Assembly (NCBI GenBank): GCA_903916675.1
Contig: CAIWXQ010000045.1
Location: 1 to 64,000 of the forward strand
Reading direction: 5' to 3'
Source of the DNA: an uncultured bacterium
Lineage (GTDB): Bacteria; Verrucomicrobiota; Kiritimatiellia; RFP12; CAIWXQ01
DNA length: 64,000 nucleotides
Positions within the stretch are counted from its first letter, which is position 1. Each line of letters begins with the position of its first letter. Of this stretch, positions 1,176-25,133 are shown one piece after another. Below the pieces are notes generated by a model. The model did not search any database, was not told the DNA's origin, and was given only the letters and a program-made list of their open reading frames with translations. Position numbers and translations under genes: made by a program.

Positions 1176-1370
1176 TGAAAGAGTGACAAGGCAGCCGAGT
1201 TTCTCCAAGGGCCGCAGAAATTCTCTCGGGGTCGGGATCGCTATCGGTATCGGGGTCGGGAAGCTGAAGACGGAAGGCGGTTAGGTAAGAGACGTCAGAC
1301 GAAAGTACTTTCGATGCCGATTCCGATAGCGACTCCGACCCCGATGCGAGTGTCACTCTTATTGCGAAAG
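1176..1370. repeat. Hexad-array inverted repeat H1 (GTCGGG/TATCGG units; right arm CGATGC CGATTC CGATAG CGACTC CGACCC CGATGC)
   Basis: Left array about 1223-1260 and right array 1311-1349 are inverted relatives with 6-bp period, bounded by GAGTGACA/TGTCACTC; homologous to 16546-16660 and 19481-19552. Confidence 0.8.
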
Positions 1371-2040: not shown

Positions 2041-2202
2041 AATTCAGACTGCTCCAATAGAGCCGGTGCAGCAGGGAGTTCTTGTAGCGCCTGGCTAGGT
2101 GGCGCAGAGGGTTTTTCTCGGTCGGGTCATGTGTTCGTTTTGCCGTGGACATCGGGCCGCGTCGGTTCGATAATCCACCCGCTCACCGGAACGGGAGGCG
2201 CA

Positions 2203-3528
2203 ATGCAGAAGCTGTTTCGACGCGATCAGGTTGCATCCGGAAGTTGGTGGCGGGCAATGGCCGCCGCACTGGCGGCATTCGGGCTGGCGTCGGGATGTTC
2301 GACCAATGGTGTCTCCGGCACCTGTCCCGCGTGTTGCCGGGAATCCCGGCGCACGGAGCAGGTCCACCAGACCGTGGCCGACTGGCTGGCGCACTGGTTG
2401 ACGCCCAAGCGTGAGGCGAACCTGACGCAGCTGGCGGAGCAGATCGTCACCCGTCTGGCGGCCGGCGGAACACTCTACGTGGCCGGCGACGCCGGATTCT
2501 GCGACGAGATGTACTTCCGTGCCGGCTGCTTTGCAGGCAGCGTGGTGTGGAACGTCACGCAGCCGTTCCTGGGGACCAACGACGTGCTGCTCGTGGGGTG
2601 GCTGGAGGGGAACGGCAAGGCTACACGCGAATTCCGTCCCGCCTTCATTGGCCAGAATCAGGGGCGCATCAGCAGCGCACTCACCATCGTCGTGGCCAGC
2701 GCGCGCTGGCCGCTGGTCACGCGGACGCTGGAAGTGGCCGATGCCCGGAAGTGGCCGGCCGGCCTCTGCCTGCTGGACACGGACGCGCCGCCCACGGAGC
2801 GCATGGCCGACTTCGCCGTCGGGCAGATTGCGACAGTCGCGGCAGCCCACGCGCTCGAGGGCGAGATGATCGCGGCAGCCACGCGCCGCGGCCGCACGCT
2901 GGCCTTCTACCCGAGCCTCGGCGCGCCGGGCGGGGACACGTTCTGTGAGCGGATCAGGGCGAAGTCGTTTCTCGATGAGCCGCATCTGGCGCCGATCCCC
3001 GCCGGTAAGCTGGCGCGCGCCTACCTCGAGGCCTGTCACGGATATGTGTCGGCGTTTCTGGCTTCTGACGAACCGGCACAGGTGCGGCGCGCCGCGGAGC
3101 GGATCGCGGCCTGCCAGCGGCGCGGCGGCACGGCGTGGACCGTGGTCAGCGGCCATGTGCTGCAGCGCGGCGGGACTGTGCCGCCGGAACTGAGCAGCCT
3201 GGCGCTCTACAGCGGCCGGTGGCAGTGGGAGGCACCGCGCGGGCTGCACGCGGACGACCTGCTCTGCAATCTGGGGTTTTTTGACTACCCGCAGAAAGAA
3301 GTGGATGCCGCGCGGGGCATCGGCGCGGAGGTGGTGACGCTCTCCGTGGCAGGCGGTCCGGCGCGGGAACAGGTTACGAACATCCGCTGCTTCTGGTCAA
3401 CGAACGACGGCACAGTCGAAGTGCCTGGCTATCCAGCCGGCTACCGGGCGCTGCCCTCGTCCGTTGTGTCCATGAGCGCATTCTGGTACAGCCTCATGGA
3501 CGAAGCGTGCGCCTGCCTGCGAAAGTAG
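2203..3528 (+). CDS. Hypothetical lipoprotein
   Basis: Signal peptide with lipobox (AAFGLASGC); ORF 2131-3528 with likely ATG at 2203; no recognised family. Confidence 0.7.
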   Translation: MQKLFRRDQVASGSWWRAMAAALAAFGLASGCSTNGVSGTCPACCRESRRTEQVHQTVADWLAHWLTPKREANLTQLAEQIVTRLAAGGTLYVAGDAGFCDEMYFRAGCFAGSVVWNVTQPFLGTNDVLLVGWLEGNGKATREFRPAFIGQNQGRISSALTIVVASARWPLVTRTLEVADARKWPAGLCLLDTDAPPTERMADFAVGQIATVAAAHALEGEMIAAATRRGRTLAFYPSLGAPGGDTFCERIRAKSFLDEPHLAPIPAGKLARAYLEACHGYVSAFLASDEPAQVRRAAERIAACQRRGGTAWTVVSGHVLQRGGTVPPELSSLALYSGRWQWEAPRGLHADDLLCNLGFFDYPQKEVDAARGIGAEVVTLSVAGGPAREQVTNIRCFWSTNDGTVEVPGYPAGYRALPSSVVSMSAFWYSLMDEACACLRK

Positions 3529-3677
3529 TGTATCAATTTGCCAATGCGGCAGGCCCCTCCTTCGCCAACTGGATCGGCGGCTGTGCCAGCCGCCGTCGCC
3601 GCGTGACACGCGCGTCGCTACACCCGGCGGCCCCGCCCTTGCGAATCCTGCAATAACAGTACAAATTGATATACAAC
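3525..3677 (-). mobile_element. MITE-like palindromic element, copy A
   Basis: Termini GTAGTGTATCAATTTGC (3525) and revcomp GTTGTATATCAATTTGT (ending 3677); core with two tandem hairpins shared with copies at 17865-18022 and about 22100-22191. Confidence 0.8.
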
Positions 3678-3732
3678 CCGCTGTGCTGTGCGCTGGACAG
3701 GTACGGCAGTTTCCTGCATTCTTCCGCCCGAG

Positions 3733-5226
3733 ATGAATGAGCTTTCTTCGGGACTGATCGGGCTGATTCCGCTGGTGCTGCTGCTGATCGGGCTGGGGTT
3801 CACTCGGCTGCCGGCGCACCTGGTGGCTGTGGCGGCGGCCGCCGCCGCCGCTCTGCTGGCGTGGGGCGGGTGGCACGCGGCACCCGCCGCGCTCGGGTGG
3901 GCGGCGTGCGAGGGCGCCGTGGTGGCGCTGGTCCCCATCCTCTGGGTGATCTTCGGCGCCGTGTTCGTCTTCCTGGTCTGCACAGAGACGCGCGGGATGG
4001 CCGCCTTTCGCCGCTTCATCACGGGCGTCTCGCCGGATCGTTCCGTGCAGGTGGTGCTGATCGCCTTCTGTCTGGGCGGCTTTCTGGAAGCAGTGGCTGG
4101 CTTCGGCTCTGCCGTGGCAGTCCCGGCCGGCATGCTGATCGTGCTGGGGGTCGAGCCGGTGCGCGCCACGGTCATCTGTCTGGTCGCCAACTCCGTGCCT
4201 GTGGCCTTCGGCGCGCTGGGGATTCCGCTGCTGGCGCTGGTGAACGTCACGGGGATTGATACTGCGGTTCTGACCCGCGACGTGGCGCTACAACTCAGCC
4301 TCTTCGCGGTCGTGGTGCCGGCAGTGCTGGTGTTCATGGCCGGCGGCGGCTGGCCGGCGGCGCGACGGGCGTTGCCCGATGCGCTGTTCATCGGGTTCGT
4401 CTTCTCCGCCACGCAGCTGCTGATTGCCTGGTTCTCGGGTCCGGAACTGGTGGCGGTCGGCGCGTCTCTGGCCGCGCTGTTTGCCTACGTGGCTTTCCGC
4501 CGCTGCCAAGGCGCGTGCGCGACCGCGCTGCGCGCGGCGGACGAGCCGTCGCTGTTCACCGCGTCGCTGCCGTTTCTCTGCCTGCTGATTCTCGTGCTGG
4601 CCACGCGCCTGACGCCGCTGCGCATCCTGCAGAAGCCGCCCTTTGCGTTCGTGCTGCATGTCCCCAACGGGCATGTGCTGACGCTCGACCTGTTCACCAC
4701 GCCGGGCACGCTGCTGACGATCGCCGGATTCGTCGGCGCCTGCGCCGGCGGGCTTTCCTTCCGCCGCACGATCGGGCTGGCAGGGCAGGCGGCGGTGAAG
4801 ATTCGGCGCACGGGCATCGTTGTCGTCTCCATTCTGGCGCTGGCCAAGATCATGACGTGTTCCGGCATGATCGCGTCGGTGGCGCGGATGCTGGCCGGCG
4901 CCGTGGGTCCGTTCTTCCCGATGCTGTCGCCCTGGCTTGGCGCGCTCGGCACGTTCGTCACCGGCAGCGACACGTCTTCGAACATCCTGCTCGGCGCGCT
5001 GCAGAAACAGACAGCTCTCGACACCGGCTGCGACCCCGGCTGGATCGCGGCGGCCAACACCTCCGGCGCCACGGCAGGGAAGATGATTTCGCCCCAGAGC
5101 ATCTCGATCGGCGCCGCCACGGCGGGCGTGGAATCGCGCCAGGGTGAAATCCTGCGCGCCACCATCTGGTACTGCGCCGGCTACCTGCTGCTCCTCAGCG
5201 TCGTGATTTATCTGGGAGCGCGGTAG
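3733..5226 (+). CDS. lctP: L-lactate permease (LctP) family transporter
   Basis: Highly hydrophobic protein of about 497 aa with LctP-like segments (GGFLEAVAGFGSAVAVPAGMLIVLG; GSDTSSNILLGALQ; NTSGATAGKMISPQSISIGAAT). Confidence 0.85.
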   Translation: MNELSSGLIGLIPLVLLLIGLGFTRLPAHLVAVAAAAAAALLAWGGWHAAPAALGWAACEGAVVALVPILWVIFGAVFVFLVCTETRGMAAFRRFITGVSPDRSVQVVLIAFCLGGFLEAVAGFGSAVAVPAGMLIVLGVEPVRATVICLVANSVPVAFGALGIPLLALVNVTGIDTAVLTRDVALQLSLFAVVVPAVLVFMAGGGWPAARRALPDALFIGFVFSATQLLIAWFSGPELVAVGASLAALFAYVAFRRCQGACATALRAADEPSLFTASLPFLCLLILVLATRLTPLRILQKPPFAFVLHVPNGHVLTLDLFTTPGTLLTIAGFVGACAGGLSFRRTIGLAGQAAVKIRRTGIVVVSILALAKIMTCSGMIASVARMLAGAVGPFFPMLSPWLGALGTFVTGSDTSSNILLGALQKQTALDTGCDPGWIAAANTSGATAGKMISPQSISIGAATAGVESRQGEILRATIWYCAGYLLLLSVVIYLGAR

Positions 5227-5259
5227 AGGCGACGGCGAGAACCGCAAAACCGCAGAACA

Positions 5260-5300
5260 GCAGAGTGTTGATTTTTGAAGGGGAAACTTCAACACTCTGC
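5260..5300. repeat. Strong hairpin downstream of lctP
   Basis: GCAGAGTGTTGA (5260-5271) is a perfect inverted match to TCAACACTCTGC (5289-5300), preceded by ACCGCAAA ACCGCAGA ACAGCAGA 8-bp units. Confidence 0.7.
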
Positions 5301-5427
5301 GGTTGGACGTTCGTCAATTTGCTGTTCGCATGGACAAATCCCAGTGTCATTACCAAAACGCCCCGGCGAACTGCTTGACAGTTGCCGCGGGGCTTTGGGA
5401 AGATGCGACAGAAGGAGAGCCTCTTCC

Positions 5428-16450: not shown

Positions 16451-16690
16451 AGGCTATAGACTGGAGACTGTAGGCGACAGCGCCAATTTGAACATCATGG
16501 AAAAGAACACCGCATACGCGTATTTCGATGACGTCAACCAGACAGAAGAGTGACAATCGCATCGGGGTCGGCGTCAGTATCGGTATCGGCGTCGAGAATG
16601 CGATCGATACCGATTCCGATAGCGACTCCGACCCCGAAAAACTCTTCGCAACTTGTGGCGAAAACCTGACATCCTTCAGCCTAACAGCCT
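16442..16690. repeat. Composite repeat: inverted heptad arrays (16442-16476 / 16673-16690) flanking hexad array H2 (16556-16637)
   Basis: TTAGGCTGAAGGCT... versus CCTTCAGCCTAACAGCCT (inverted); between them CATCGGGGTCGGCGTCAGTATCGGTATCGGCGTCGA / TCGATACCGATTCCGATAGCGACTCCGACCCCGA. Confidence 0.8.
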
Positions 16691-17014: not shown

Positions 17015-17857
17015 ATGTATTTCGTGGGGCCGCACGTGTCGATCAAGGGCGGGGTCGGGCAGGCGCCGGCGAACGCCGCGGCAGTCGGTGCCACGGGCTT
17101 CGGCATGTTCACCAAGAATCAGGTGCAGTGGCGCGCGGCAGCCTTCTCCGCGGAGGACCGCACGCGCTTCGCCGCGGCGCTGGCAGAGCGTGGCTACGCG
17201 CCGGAGCAGGTGTTGCCGCACGCGGGCTATTTGATCAATCTGGCGAATCCGGACGACACGGCGCACGCCAAGGCCCTGACCTCCTTCGTTGGCGAGCTGC
17301 AGCGCTGCGCAGAGCTGGGGCTGACCATGCTGAACCTGCATCCCGGCAGCCACTTGCGCAAGCTGGAGCCGTCAGCCGCCTGCGCGCGCGTGGCCAGCGC
17401 GATCAACGAGGCGCTGCGGCAGACGCGCGGCGTGACCGTGGTGATCGAAAACACGGCCGGTCAGGGCGCCTGCCTCGGCGCGACGTTCGAGGAGCTGGCC
17501 GCCCTGGTTGCAGGGGTGGAGGACCAGAAGCGCATCGGCATCTGCCTCGACACAGCGCACACCTTTGCTGCGGGGTTCGACATCCGCACGGCCGGCGGCC
17601 TGCAACGCACGCTGGACGCCTTCGACCAACTCGTGGGGTTCCGCTACCTGCGCGGCCTGCACCTGAACGATTCCAAGGTCAGCCTCGGGTCGCGCGTGGA
17701 TCGGCACGAATCGCTCGGCCAGGGGCACCTTGGATGGGAGCCGTTCCGGCAGATCATGCAGGACGCGCGCTTCGCCAATCTGCCGCTGGTCATCGAGACG
17801 CCGGACGAGGCGCGCTGGCCCGGGGAAATCAGGCAGCTGCTGGACTGGGCAAGGTGA
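17015..17857 (+). CDS. nfo: Deoxyribonuclease IV (AP endonuclease IV)
   Basis: GPHVSIKGGV, LNLHPGSHL, VIENTAGQGACLGATFEEL, GICLDTAHTFAAGFD, HLNDSK..LGSRVDRHESLGQGHLGWEPF, VIETP motifs. Confidence 0.93.
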   Translation: MYFVGPHVSIKGGVGQAPANAAAVGATGFGMFTKNQVQWRAAAFSAEDRTRFAAALAERGYAPEQVLPHAGYLINLANPDDTAHAKALTSFVGELQRCAELGLTMLNLHPGSHLRKLEPSAACARVASAINEALRQTRGVTVVIENTAGQGACLGATFEELAALVAGVEDQKRIGICLDTAHTFAAGFDIRTAGGLQRTLDAFDQLVGFRYLRGLHLNDSKVSLGSRVDRHESLGQGHLGWEPFRQIMQDARFANLPLVIETPDEARWPGEIRQLLDWAR

Positions 17858-17864
17858 GCGGGCG

Positions 17865-18022
17865 GTGGTGTATCGATTGGTACTGTTACCGCAGGATTCG
17901 CAAAGGTAGGGCGAGTCCGCCGGGTGTAGCGGCGCGTGTGTCACGCGCCGACGGCGGCTGGCACAGCCGCCGCTACAGTTGGCGAAGGAGGCATCCGCCG
18001 CATTCGCAAATGGATACACAAC
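17865..18022 (+). mobile_element. MITE-like palindromic element, copy B
   Basis: GTGGTGTATCGATTGGTACTGTTACCGCAGGATTCGCAA... to ...CGCATTCGCAAATGGATACACAAC; same ends and core as copy A; core hairpins GGCGCGTG TGT CACGCGCC and GGCGGCTG GCA CAGCCGCC. Confidence 0.85.
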
Positions 18023-19480: not shown

Positions 19481-19552
19481 GCGGGGTCGGTATCCGGGTC
19501 GACAAAAGTTGTTGGTTCGATGCCGATTTCGATAGCGACCCCAATCCCGAGG
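19481..19552. repeat. Hexad-array inverted repeat H3
   Basis: GCGGGGTCGGTATCCGGGTCGA / TCGATGCCGATTTCGATAGCGACCCCAATCCCGAGG; same family as H1 and H2. Confidence 0.75.
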
Positions 19553-21569: not shown

Positions 21570-21706
21570 AGGATGTAAGATTCAGGGTGCAAGATTTGGG
21601 ATGCGGGATGCAGGATGGGGGATGAGAACCAAGGGAAAGAATTTCTGGATTCTGTGAGCGACGCGACTGCCGTATTCCGAATCCCGCATTCCGAATCTTG
21701 CATCCT
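21570..21706. repeat. Inverted heptad arrays S5 (8 heptads / 5 heptads)
   Basis: AGGATGT AAGATTC AGGGTGC AAGATTT GGGATGC GGGATGC AGGATGG GGGATGA (21570-21625) versus GTATTCC GAATCCC GCATTCC GAATCTT GCATCCT (21672-21706). Confidence 0.85.
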
Positions 21707-21728
21707 TTTCTCAATCAGCAACGAGCAT

Positions 21729-24700
21729 ATGATGAACTTCCGTATCTGGATTACACGTAGCCTCCGCTTCCACCGCCGGATGCACCTGGCCGTGGCAGGC
21801 GGGGCGGCCTTGGCTGCGGCCGTGCTGGCCACGGCGCTGCTCACCGGCGATGCGCTGAACCGCAACCTGCGGCGCATCGCGCGGGAGCGCGTGGGCTGGG
21901 TCCGCTCCGCTGTGGAACTGCGCGGACGTTTCGCGGATGCCGCGCTGGCAGACCTCCTGGCGCAGGCGACCGGCGGCCGGGTTGCGCCTGTGCTGCGGCT
22001 GCCAGCCTCCCTGCTGGCCTCCGACGCGGCTGCAGACGAACGGCGCGTGGACCGCGTGGACGCCTATGGCGTGGACGAGCGGTTTTTCGCGCTGCGGTCG
22101 GATTCAGGTAGGGCGGGGCCGCCGGACCCGCCGGGTGTAGCGGCGCGTGTGTCACGCGCCGACGGCGGCTGGCACAGCCGCCGCTACAGTTTTCGCGGCG
22201 TTTCCGTCGGCCCTGTCCTACCTTTGGCCAGCGAGGTTTTGATCTCCCACGCGTTGCAGGACGCGCTGGGACCGATTCCCGCGACAACCGGACTGGCGCT
22301 GCGGTTCGAGCAGCCCTCCGCGTTCCCGGGTGAGATGCCCCTGGCGGACCGGCGAAGCGACCACGTGCAGCGGCGGTCGGTGCGGCTGTGCGGGATGCTG
22401 GACGATGCGGAAATGGGGCGCCTCTCGCTGCAGGCCAGCCAGATTCCGCCGCGCAACGCCTTCGTCGACCGTGCGTGGCTGGCCAGCGAGGCAGGTGTCG
22501 GCCAGCGCATCAACCTGCTGCTGAGCGACGCGCCTCCGGAGAAATTCGAGGCTGCCCTGCGCGCCGCGCTGCGGCCGTCGGACGCGGGTGTGACAATCGT
22601 CGCAGCCACAGGCGGCGTGTGGCTGGTGCAGTCGGACCGCGTCTATCTCGACGAGGCGCACGTGCGGGCGCTGGCCAATGCCACGAACGCGCCCGTGCTG
22701 GCGCTGCATCATCTGGTGGATGCGTTTGCAGTGGGCGAGGGGGCAACGGCGCGCGAGACGCCCTACGGATTCGTCACGGCTCTGTCGCCCGCGGCCGATG
22801 CGCGGCTGGGCGTGGTGCCGGCCGGGATGCGCGACGACGAGATCGTGGTCAACGTCTGGCTGGCGGAAAAGCTGAAGGTGGGGGCAGGCGACCGGCTGAC
22901 CCTGCGCTGGCGGCGGTTCGAGTCCGGCGGCCGGCTCGTTCCCGACGAAGCGACCTTCCGCGTGGCGCGCGTGATCACCATGGCAGCCTGCGCGCCGGAG
23001 CGCGCCCTGCTGCCGCGCTTCCCGGGGCTGGCCGATGTGGATCGGTGCACTGACTGGGACATCGGCCTGCCGCTGGACGCGCAGAAGCTCAACGATCCGG
23101 ACAACGAGGCATACTGGAAAGCGTACGGTCCGACGCCCAAGGCGTTCGTCACGCTGACCGCCGGGCGGCTGCTCTTCGGCACGCACTTCGGCACAGCCAT
23201 GACTGCGCGTTTTCCTCCGGAGGCGTTGCCAGCAACGATCGAGGCAACGCTGCGCCGTGCCGCGCCAGCGGAACTGGGGTTTGCGGTGCGGCCGGTGCAA
23301 GCAGAGGCGTTGCAGGCAGCCGGGCAGGCGATGGATTTCCGGCAGTTGTTTGCGGGGATGGCGATGATGCTGATGGTCTCGGCGCTGCTGCTGACCGGGC
23401 TGCTGGCCTCGCTGGGCGTTGCGCACCGGCGCGCGGAGGTGGGGGTGCTGCGGGCCGTGGGGTTCACGCCGCGGCAGGTGGCGTTCCTGTGGCTGGCGGA
23501 ATCGCTGGTGCCGCTGACAGCAGGCGTGGTGGCGGGTGTGGCCATTGGACTGGGCGGCGCGCGCCTCCTCATCTGGGTGCTGAACCGGGTCTGGAGCGCT
23601 GCGGTGGCGTCGGCGCAGGTGCCGTTCTCAATCGGCCTGGAGGCGTGTGCAGCGGCTGGCGCGCTGGCGCTGGGAATGTCGCTGCTGGCGGTGCGATGGG
23701 GGATTGCGCAGGCGTCGCAAGCGCAGGTGCGCGAGCTGCTGGGCGATCTGCCGGATGAGGAGGCCGGTGCGGACCGCCGCTGGACGGTCCGGAACTTTGC
23801 GATCGGCATCGGCGCGGCCATTGGGGCGATCGCGCTGCTGGCGTGGGGCGGGCGGCTTTCCGGCGAGGCAGCGTCTGGGGTTTTCTTCGGCGCTGGCGCG
23901 CTGCTGCTGGTCTCGCTGCTGAGCCTGGCGCGGCTGCTGGCGCAGTTTCCGCTGGCCAACAGCCAAGCGGCAATCGGTCCGGCGCGGGCCGGGTTATTGA
24001 ACGTGGCGCGTCACCGCGGGCGGAGTCTGCTGGTGATGACGCTGCTGGCGTCGGGGAGCTTTCTGACGATCGGCACGCTCTCCATGAAGCAGGACCCGGC
24101 TGCGGGTGGGACGCGGAGCTGGTCCGGCAGCGGCGGTTTCGAGGATCTGGTGGAGTTGTCGATCCCTCTGCCGGGCAGCCGGGCGGACGAGGCTGTGCGC
24201 CGGACTCTGGAGCCGGGCGCGGCCGTGCTGGCGTTCCGGGTGCGGGAGGGGGAGGAGGCCGGCTGCCTGAACCTCAACCGTGCGCAACAGCCGCGCCTGC
24301 TGGGCGTGGCGCCGGAGGCGGCAGCGGCGCTGCGGGCATTTGAGCGGCCGGGCGGGAAATCGGTCTGGCGGCTGCTGCAGCAGCCAATGGCGGACGGCAC
24401 GATCCCCGTGCTGGCGGGCGATCGCACCACCGTGGACTACGGCCTGCAGGCGAAGGTTGGTGTGCGCGACGGCAGCGTGTACGAGTATGTTGGCGAGGAC
24501 GGGACCGTGTGGCGGCTGCGCGTGGTGGGCGTGTTGCCGGTGCGCACAGGCGTGCTGCAGGGCAGCCTGCTGGTGGAGGAAGCGGTCTTCACGCGCCTGT
24601 TCCCCTCGACGCCCGGGCATGGCATGTGGCTGACGCGCAGCCGGCTGCCGGAGGCAGAGTCTGCGGCGCGGCTGCGGCGCGCGCTGGGGCGCAACGGCGG

Positions 24701-25133
24701 GATTGTGACGCCAACGCGCGAGCGGCTGCGGCTGCTGGGCGCAGAGGAAGGGACCTACCTCGACATGTTTCTGGTGCTGGGCGGGTTGGGTGTAGTGTTG
24801 GGCGCTGCCGGCGCGGGGCTGGTGATGCTGCGCAACGCGGCAGCTCGGCGTGGCGAACTGGCAACGCTGCGGGTCATGGGCGTGCCGCCGCGCCGGGTGC
24901 TGCTCTACCTGGTGGCGGAGCATGCCTGGGTGGTGCTGGCAGGTCTGGTTGCCGGTGTGATTGCGGCGCTGGTGGCGGTGCAGCCGGCGCGGCACAGCCT
25001 GGGCGGAGAGATGCCCGTGGGCACCATGGCAGGCATGATCGCCGCGATGATCCTCGCCGGGATCCTGGGGATCTGCGCCGCAGTCCGGTCCGCGGCGCGC
25101 GTGCCGCTGATCGACGCGCTGCGCGGCGAGTGA
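21729..25133 (+). CDS. ABC transporter permease, FtsX-like (two FtsX domains)
   Basis: N-terminal TM, periplasmic domain, LASLGVAHRRAEVGVLRAVGFTPRQV...AESLVPL and LRNAAARRGELATLRVMGVPPRRVLLYLVAEH; start set at 21729 because upstream codons are repeat DNA. Confidence 0.88.
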   Translation: MMNFRIWITRSLRFHRRMHLAVAGGAALAAAVLATALLTGDALNRNLRRIARERVGWVRSAVELRGRFADAALADLLAQATGGRVAPVLRLPASLLASDAAADERRVDRVDAYGVDERFFALRSDSGRAGPPDPPGVAARVSRADGGWHSRRYSFRGVSVGPVLPLASEVLISHALQDALGPIPATTGLALRFEQPSAFPGEMPLADRRSDHVQRRSVRLCGMLDDAEMGRLSLQASQIPPRNAFVDRAWLASEAGVGQRINLLLSDAPPEKFEAALRAALRPSDAGVTIVAATGGVWLVQSDRVYLDEAHVRALANATNAPVLALHHLVDAFAVGEGATARETPYGFVTALSPAADARLGVVPAGMRDDEIVVNVWLAEKLKVGAGDRLTLRWRRFESGGRLVPDEATFRVARVITMAACAPERALLPRFPGLADVDRCTDWDIGLPLDAQKLNDPDNEAYWKAYGPTPKAFVTLTAGRLLFGTHFGTAMTARFPPEALPATIEATLRRAAPAELGFAVRPVQAEALQAAGQAMDFRQLFAGMAMMLMVSALLLTGLLASLGVAHRRAEVGVLRAVGFTPRQVAFLWLAESLVPLTAGVVAGVAIGLGGARLLIWVLNRVWSAAVASAQVPFSIGLEACAAAGALALGMSLLAVRWGIAQASQAQVRELLGDLPDEEAGADRRWTVRNFAIGIGAAIGAIALLAWGGRLSGEAASGVFFGAGALLLVSLLSLARLLAQFPLANSQAAIGPARAGLLNVARHRGRSLLVMTLLASGSFLTIGTLSMKQDPAAGGTRSWSGSGGFEDLVELSIPLPGSRADEAVRRTLEPGAAVLAFRVREGEEAGCLNLNRAQQPRLLGVAPEAAAALRAFERPGGKSVWRLLQQPMADGTIPVLAGDRTTVDYGLQAKVGVRDGSVYEYVGEDGTVWRLRVVGVLPVRTGVLQGSLLVEEAVFTRLFPSTPGHGMWLTRSRLPEAESAARLRRALGRNGGIVTPTRERLRLLGAEEGTYLDMFLVLGGLGVVLGAAGAGLVMLRNAAARRGELATLRVMGVPPRRVLLYLVAEHAWVVLAGLVAGVIAALVAVQPARHSLGGEMPVGTMAGMIAAMILAGILGICAAVRSAARVPLIDALRGE
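22100..22191 (+). mobile_element. MITE-like element core, copy C, inside the permease CDS
   Basis: 64 bp (22128-22191) identical to 17917-17980 of copy B; encodes PPGVAARVSRADGGWHSRRYS in frame. Confidence 0.85.

Follow-up and report, generated by a model that had tools for sequence, protein, structure and literature searches.

A GTAG-tagged REP dimer among older repeats: probable nested mosaics in an uncultured Kiritimatiellia genome

Two intergenic sites in a 64,000-nt stretch of DNA from an uncultured Kiritimatiellia bacterium (the whole stretch is referred to as the window) carry copies of a block of about 153 bp bounded by terminal inverted repeats (TIRs), which raises the question of what the repeated and mobile unit is: the block as a whole or something within it. 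A sequence-only reading had described the block as a MITE-like element or a member of a REP/BIME-like family, and its outline of the locus is confirmed. The first copy (A) occupies most of the 159-bp gap between the genes at 2131-3528 and 3688-5226, the latter encoding an L-lactate permease, and its ends form an imperfect inverted repeat with 14 of 16 positions complementary (88%; 13 of 16 in copy B), and a 14-of-16 match within the outer 36 nt arises in just 7 out of 4000 windows of 153 bp drawn at random from this sequence. The second copy (B), in inverse orientation, aligns with A over the full length at 84% identity; it starts 7 bp past the stop of a xylose-isomerase-like gene (17015-17857), and a glycosyltransferase gene comes next. 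The left end of copy A does contain the TAG stop of the upstream gene. In that gene, which the sequence-only reading called a lipoprotein gene, the reading frame has a lipobox-like LASGC, and Pfam names no domain there.

Repeat features of the window, with positions in the window and strand
Feature	Position	Strand
Copy A, composite: outer inverted-repeat element, older GTAG REP (R4; remnant), REP dimer	3525-3677	+
Copy A, left TIR; holds TAG stop (3526-3528) of ORF 2131-3528	3525-3540	+
Copy A, right TIR	3662-3677	-
Copy A, first REP, TGTGCC-loop type; tag GTAG mutated to GGAT	3571-3595	+
Copy A, inverse REP, TGTGTC-loop type; outer end CTAC; 1-bp spacer to first REP	3597-3621	-
Copy A, remnant of older repeat R4 (GGTAGGGCNGGGCCGCCGG...)	3623-3638	-
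Copy B, same composite as copy A	17865-18022	-
Copy B, R4 remnant, adjoining the dimer directly	17905-17924	+
Copy B, intact REP head-to-head dimer, GTAG...CTAC, 51 bp	17926-17976	-
R4 REP, intact, immediately preceding the third dimer	22107-22133	+
Third REP dimer, identical to copy B core; inside FtsX-like permease gene, in frame	22137-22187	+

The repeated unit proved to be the 51-bp core rather than the 153-bp whole. In copy B, the first arm of this core reads GTAG-CGGCGGCTG-TGC-CAGCCGCCG and is followed by a single base T, and the second arm is the inverse of GTAG-CGGCGCGTG-TGT-CACGCGCCG; both arms belong to one family, with differences in the loop and, in the stem, a GC pair exchanged for CG in a compensated way. 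Each 25-nt half-site comprises GTAG, a 9-bp stem, and a 3-nt loop, which is the form expected of a REP, a palindrome of 20 to 50 nt after an unpaired GTAG, with one tag mutated in copy A. Within the dimer, the GTAG tag can pair with the CTAC of the partner. Across 12 dimers of this genome, 93.8% of the pair cells were formed, as against 18 to 53% when the partner was slid by one to three columns, and the intact dimers fold with z scores of about -6 to -7. The twin core hairpins of the sequence-only reading are clear in copy B (two adjacent hairpins with an outer closing stem; z = -6.9), but in copy A one of them is degraded (z = -3.0). Because of its tag, its stem-loop, an inverted partner 1 bp away, the pairing, and the fold, the core is, by sequence, a GTAG-tagged REP head-to-head dimer (BIME/REPIN).

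When copy A was used as a query against the genome assembly (2.48 Mb in 48 contigs, 87% complete), as the sequence-only reading had proposed, we obtained 19 matches, among which only A and B were full length; most of the others covered the central 50 to 60 nt. A half-site query with four free stem positions found 26 half-sites at no more than one mismatch, paired or single, and single REP arms also occur in isolation; the same query returned none in the 161 other genomes of the order and none in the reversed control. Viral contigs held no copies of the core, and an Rfam scan of the window returned tRNA only. We sampled about 400 kb of this genome for reading and placed half-sites relative to genes in a 460-kb sample, where a crude gene caller put nine between genes and three within genes and left three unclassified. 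The core is thus interspersed, multicopy, mainly extragenic, and present both as singles and as inverted pairs, as in REP/BIME/REPIN families. A total of about 26 half-sites is small for a REP family, and this counts against the REP-dimer explanation.

Beyond this genome, the motif has at least 113 sites in GTDB species genomes. Among the matches listed, nearly all lie in soil Verrucomicrobia (Chthoniobacterales and relatives) and in one Victivallis vadensis MAG, and one site is in Rheinheimera. The free stem positions are complementary in 100 of the 113 listed sites, with seven pair types and a chance expectation of 7%; sites within one genome share descent, so that their independence would be exaggerated by a p-value, but the pair types differ between genomes. 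Such compensatory change is what a REP stem would display. An inverted partner follows in 44 of these 113 sites, ending ~35 to 40 nt further on.

We consider it very unlikely that the 153- to 158-bp block is a single MITE that a DDE-type transposase mobilises whole through the TIRs. Its ends have the required inverted repeats, A and B share both ends and interior, and a third locus (C13:36833-36916) also has both ends, but these three loci are the only ones in the genome with the full TIR form, fewer than the numerous copies, uniform both at the ends and inside, by which a MITE is defined, and the C13 copy, 84 nt long, lacks the core, which itself is found in many places without these ends. 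No direct repeat that could be a target-site duplication was seen by eye at the flanks of A, B, or C13, and a search of this genome for the ends found no transposase that carries them. Other GTNGTRTATC-like ends (on C24, C1, C8, and C41) were single ends, in about the number expected by chance. Neither do TIRs of this type stand beside a RAYT in this genome, as they would in a TIRtron; the RAYT flanks carry GTAG REPs. The C13 element contains an R4-like stretch and no dimer, and it may be either ancestral or a deletion from a full copy; deletion may explain it because ~17 nt beyond the dimer are also absent, part of which (TCCTTCGCCAA) recurs elsewhere as another repeat. Since the ends occur without the core and the core without the ends, the two have at least partly separate histories. 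The sequence-only reading had overlooked both this coreless form and the many solitary recurrences of the core (for example, at 22137-22187), and its 153-bp mobile unit is not borne out.

Instead, at least three repeat families are combined in the 153-bp stretch, and layering of this kind is seen in the FtsX-like permease gene (21615-25133). There, the insert formed by R4 and the dimer (22107-22187) is translated in frame as PDPPGVAARVSRADGGWHSRRYS and adds ~30 to 40 residues that are absent from distant orthologues. In a genus-mate (G001), the orthologue shares 60% identity and carries R4 twice at the same site, with no dimer, and 11 more distant orthologues have neither R4 nor dimer. R4 itself occupies 213 places in the genus-mate and eight in this genome, and the dimers of A, B, C6, and C18:8.9 kb likewise have R4 remnants at their flanks. 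The G001 site with R4 but without the dimer, the R4 remnants elsewhere, and the C13 form together point to a younger dimer having joined an older REP, apparently once in a coding gene and twice inside the TIR element. Inside A and B, the order of events is one that we infer. The core of A and B is, very probably, a GTAG REP dimer that landed in or beside older repeats, and A and B are therefore best described as nested REP mosaics. Mechanistically, the dimer would be a non-autonomous miniature element that a REP-associated tyrosine (HUH) transposase (RAYT) spreads as a single strand, and it would have landed in or beside an R4-type GTAG REP that itself lay within a low-copy inverted-repeat element with GTNGTRTATCNATTTG ends.

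Other repeats came to light as well. A second head-to-head dimer family (GGTAGGGACGGTTCTCCGAACCGTCCGCGGACGCCTCGGAGAGGCGTCCCTACC) has the same architecture (L117 19475-19528, L118 9810-9868, L116 5136-5189, and others). A palindromic repeat of ~80 nt (AACCGCAGAACAGCAGAGTGTTGA...TCAACACTCTGCGGTT), possibly a MITE, has several copies (window 5248-5327; L118 10596-10810; L129 17597-17675), and dispersed TCGGGGTCGGCGTCGGTATCGGAATCGG-type repeats are present in many copies (window 1226-1348, 16546-16637, and 19506-19550; L113-L129).

A transposase associated with dimers of this kind is found in a relative. In a Verrucomicrobium locus (L172), two identical dimers (845-909 and 1376-1440) bracket a RAYT gene whose product, an HUH transposase, has no more than 176 residues (98.5 bits against NCBI model NF047646; cut-off 80), and the stop codon of this gene is the TAG of the second GTAG. 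This arrangement was the only one of its kind among 109 loci from the matches listed. The membership in a REP/BIME-like family suggested earlier is right for the core, given its tag, perfect stems, head-to-head pairing, copy number, stem covariation, and this bracketed RAYT.

In the genome under study, a search with Y1_Tnp (PF01797) returned nothing, and this had been read as absence of a RAYT. That reading was overturned: a profile built from three genus-mate RAYTs found one RAYT at C18:144.4-145.1 kb, so that the Y1_Tnp result was a false negative. The C18 RAYT is not recognised by Pfam and matches the NCBI RAYT model at 9e-19, under the cut-off. It is bordered by three GTAG REPs (GTAGGTCCGCG...; GTAGGTCCGCGACT..GGCGCGGACC) that differ from the core REP, two of which are followed by an inverse partner. 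Its locus (L120 4280-5130; C18:144.3-145.1 kb) has the layout of a complete REPtron between dxs-like and proA-like genes, named from their translations. A RAYT bordered by the exact REP of the core (GTAGCGGCG) was not found in the 87% complete assembly. Because the genus-mate profile also recognises the L172 type, it should have picked up any second RAYT within the assembled part. The cognate RAYT may therefore lie outside the assembly, may have been lost, or may have given way to the C18 RAYT. A genus-mate RAYT (L136) is likewise bordered by three GTAG palindromes, and at another locus of G001 (L137 2414-3630) a RAYT-like reading frame lies amid GGAG-tagged palindromes (GGAGTGCGCGACCTTGGTCGCGC, GCGGCGGCAAGCCGCCGC). 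Y1_Tnp is present in 24 of 26 motif-bearing genomes, a frequency only slightly higher than that across the order (116 of 162), and this proves nothing alone. We infer that these copies were moved by a RAYT, and likewise which one it would be; in E. coli and in other systems that have been studied, the transposase is known to cleave the tagged hairpin as a single strand (PMC8266576).

It is extremely unlikely, in our estimate, that the core is a functional RNA element (a terminator or an mRNA 3' end protector) kept by selection and not mobile: its fold is stable, with stems that include G-U pairs, and the nine classifiable intergenic copies divide into six unidirectional, three convergent, and no divergent placements, but neither an intrinsic terminator nor a T-run lies behind the hairpins, relatives in the order lack the motif, and one copy lies within a coding gene. 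A mobile origin would leave room for a secondary role as RNA, and any effect of the dimer on mRNA would be secondary and putative.

A REP dimer that landed among older repeats is ordinary mobile-repeat biology and a modest discovery, with clear evidence of a repeat landing beside a repeat: a REP family with clean layering, in which the older REP is common to the genus-mate and the younger dimer is present here only. Together with the REP-bracketed RAYT of a relative, this layering opens RAYT-REP specificity and REP-on-REP insertion to study outside Proteobacteria. A broader proposal, which we regard as doubtful, is that a GTAG REP family found across the PVC group inserts preferentially in or beside other REPs and inverted-repeat elements, so that families would stack as dated layers, and that its dimer could be served by a RAYT with a different REP of its own.

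Our literature search found no biochemical data on a PVC RAYT and, specifically on REPs of Verrucomicrobia, a single paper, in which the GTAG REP superfamily is described in the PVC superphylum, including the GTAG-17 head-to-head dimers of Opitutus terrae with a spacer of 1 to 2 bp (Di Nocera et al. 2013, PMC3733652). GTAG REPs typically lie behind genes, and their tags often provide stop codons (PMC3733652). The core resembles this superfamily and GTAG-17 in its GTAG tag, short perfect stem, short loop, and head-to-head heterodimers 1 to 2 bp apart, and further in tag-supplied stop codons, intragenic copies, and REP dimers within other palindromes; the likeness to the named families is one of description. 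It also resembles the group 3 TnpA_REP/RAYT REPs in REP form, being short and perfectly paired with a GTAG foot (Corneloup et al. 2021, PMC8266576). As in REPINs (Bertels and Rainey 2011, PMC3116915), an inverted REP doublet would be the replicative unit, with singlets alongside; unlike in REPINs, the spacer here is 1 bp, so that the two hairpins are immediate neighbours, closed by a short outer stem. The present case also differs from those of PMC3733652 in that the host palindrome exists here without the dimer (C13), a form that was not found there for two of three cases.
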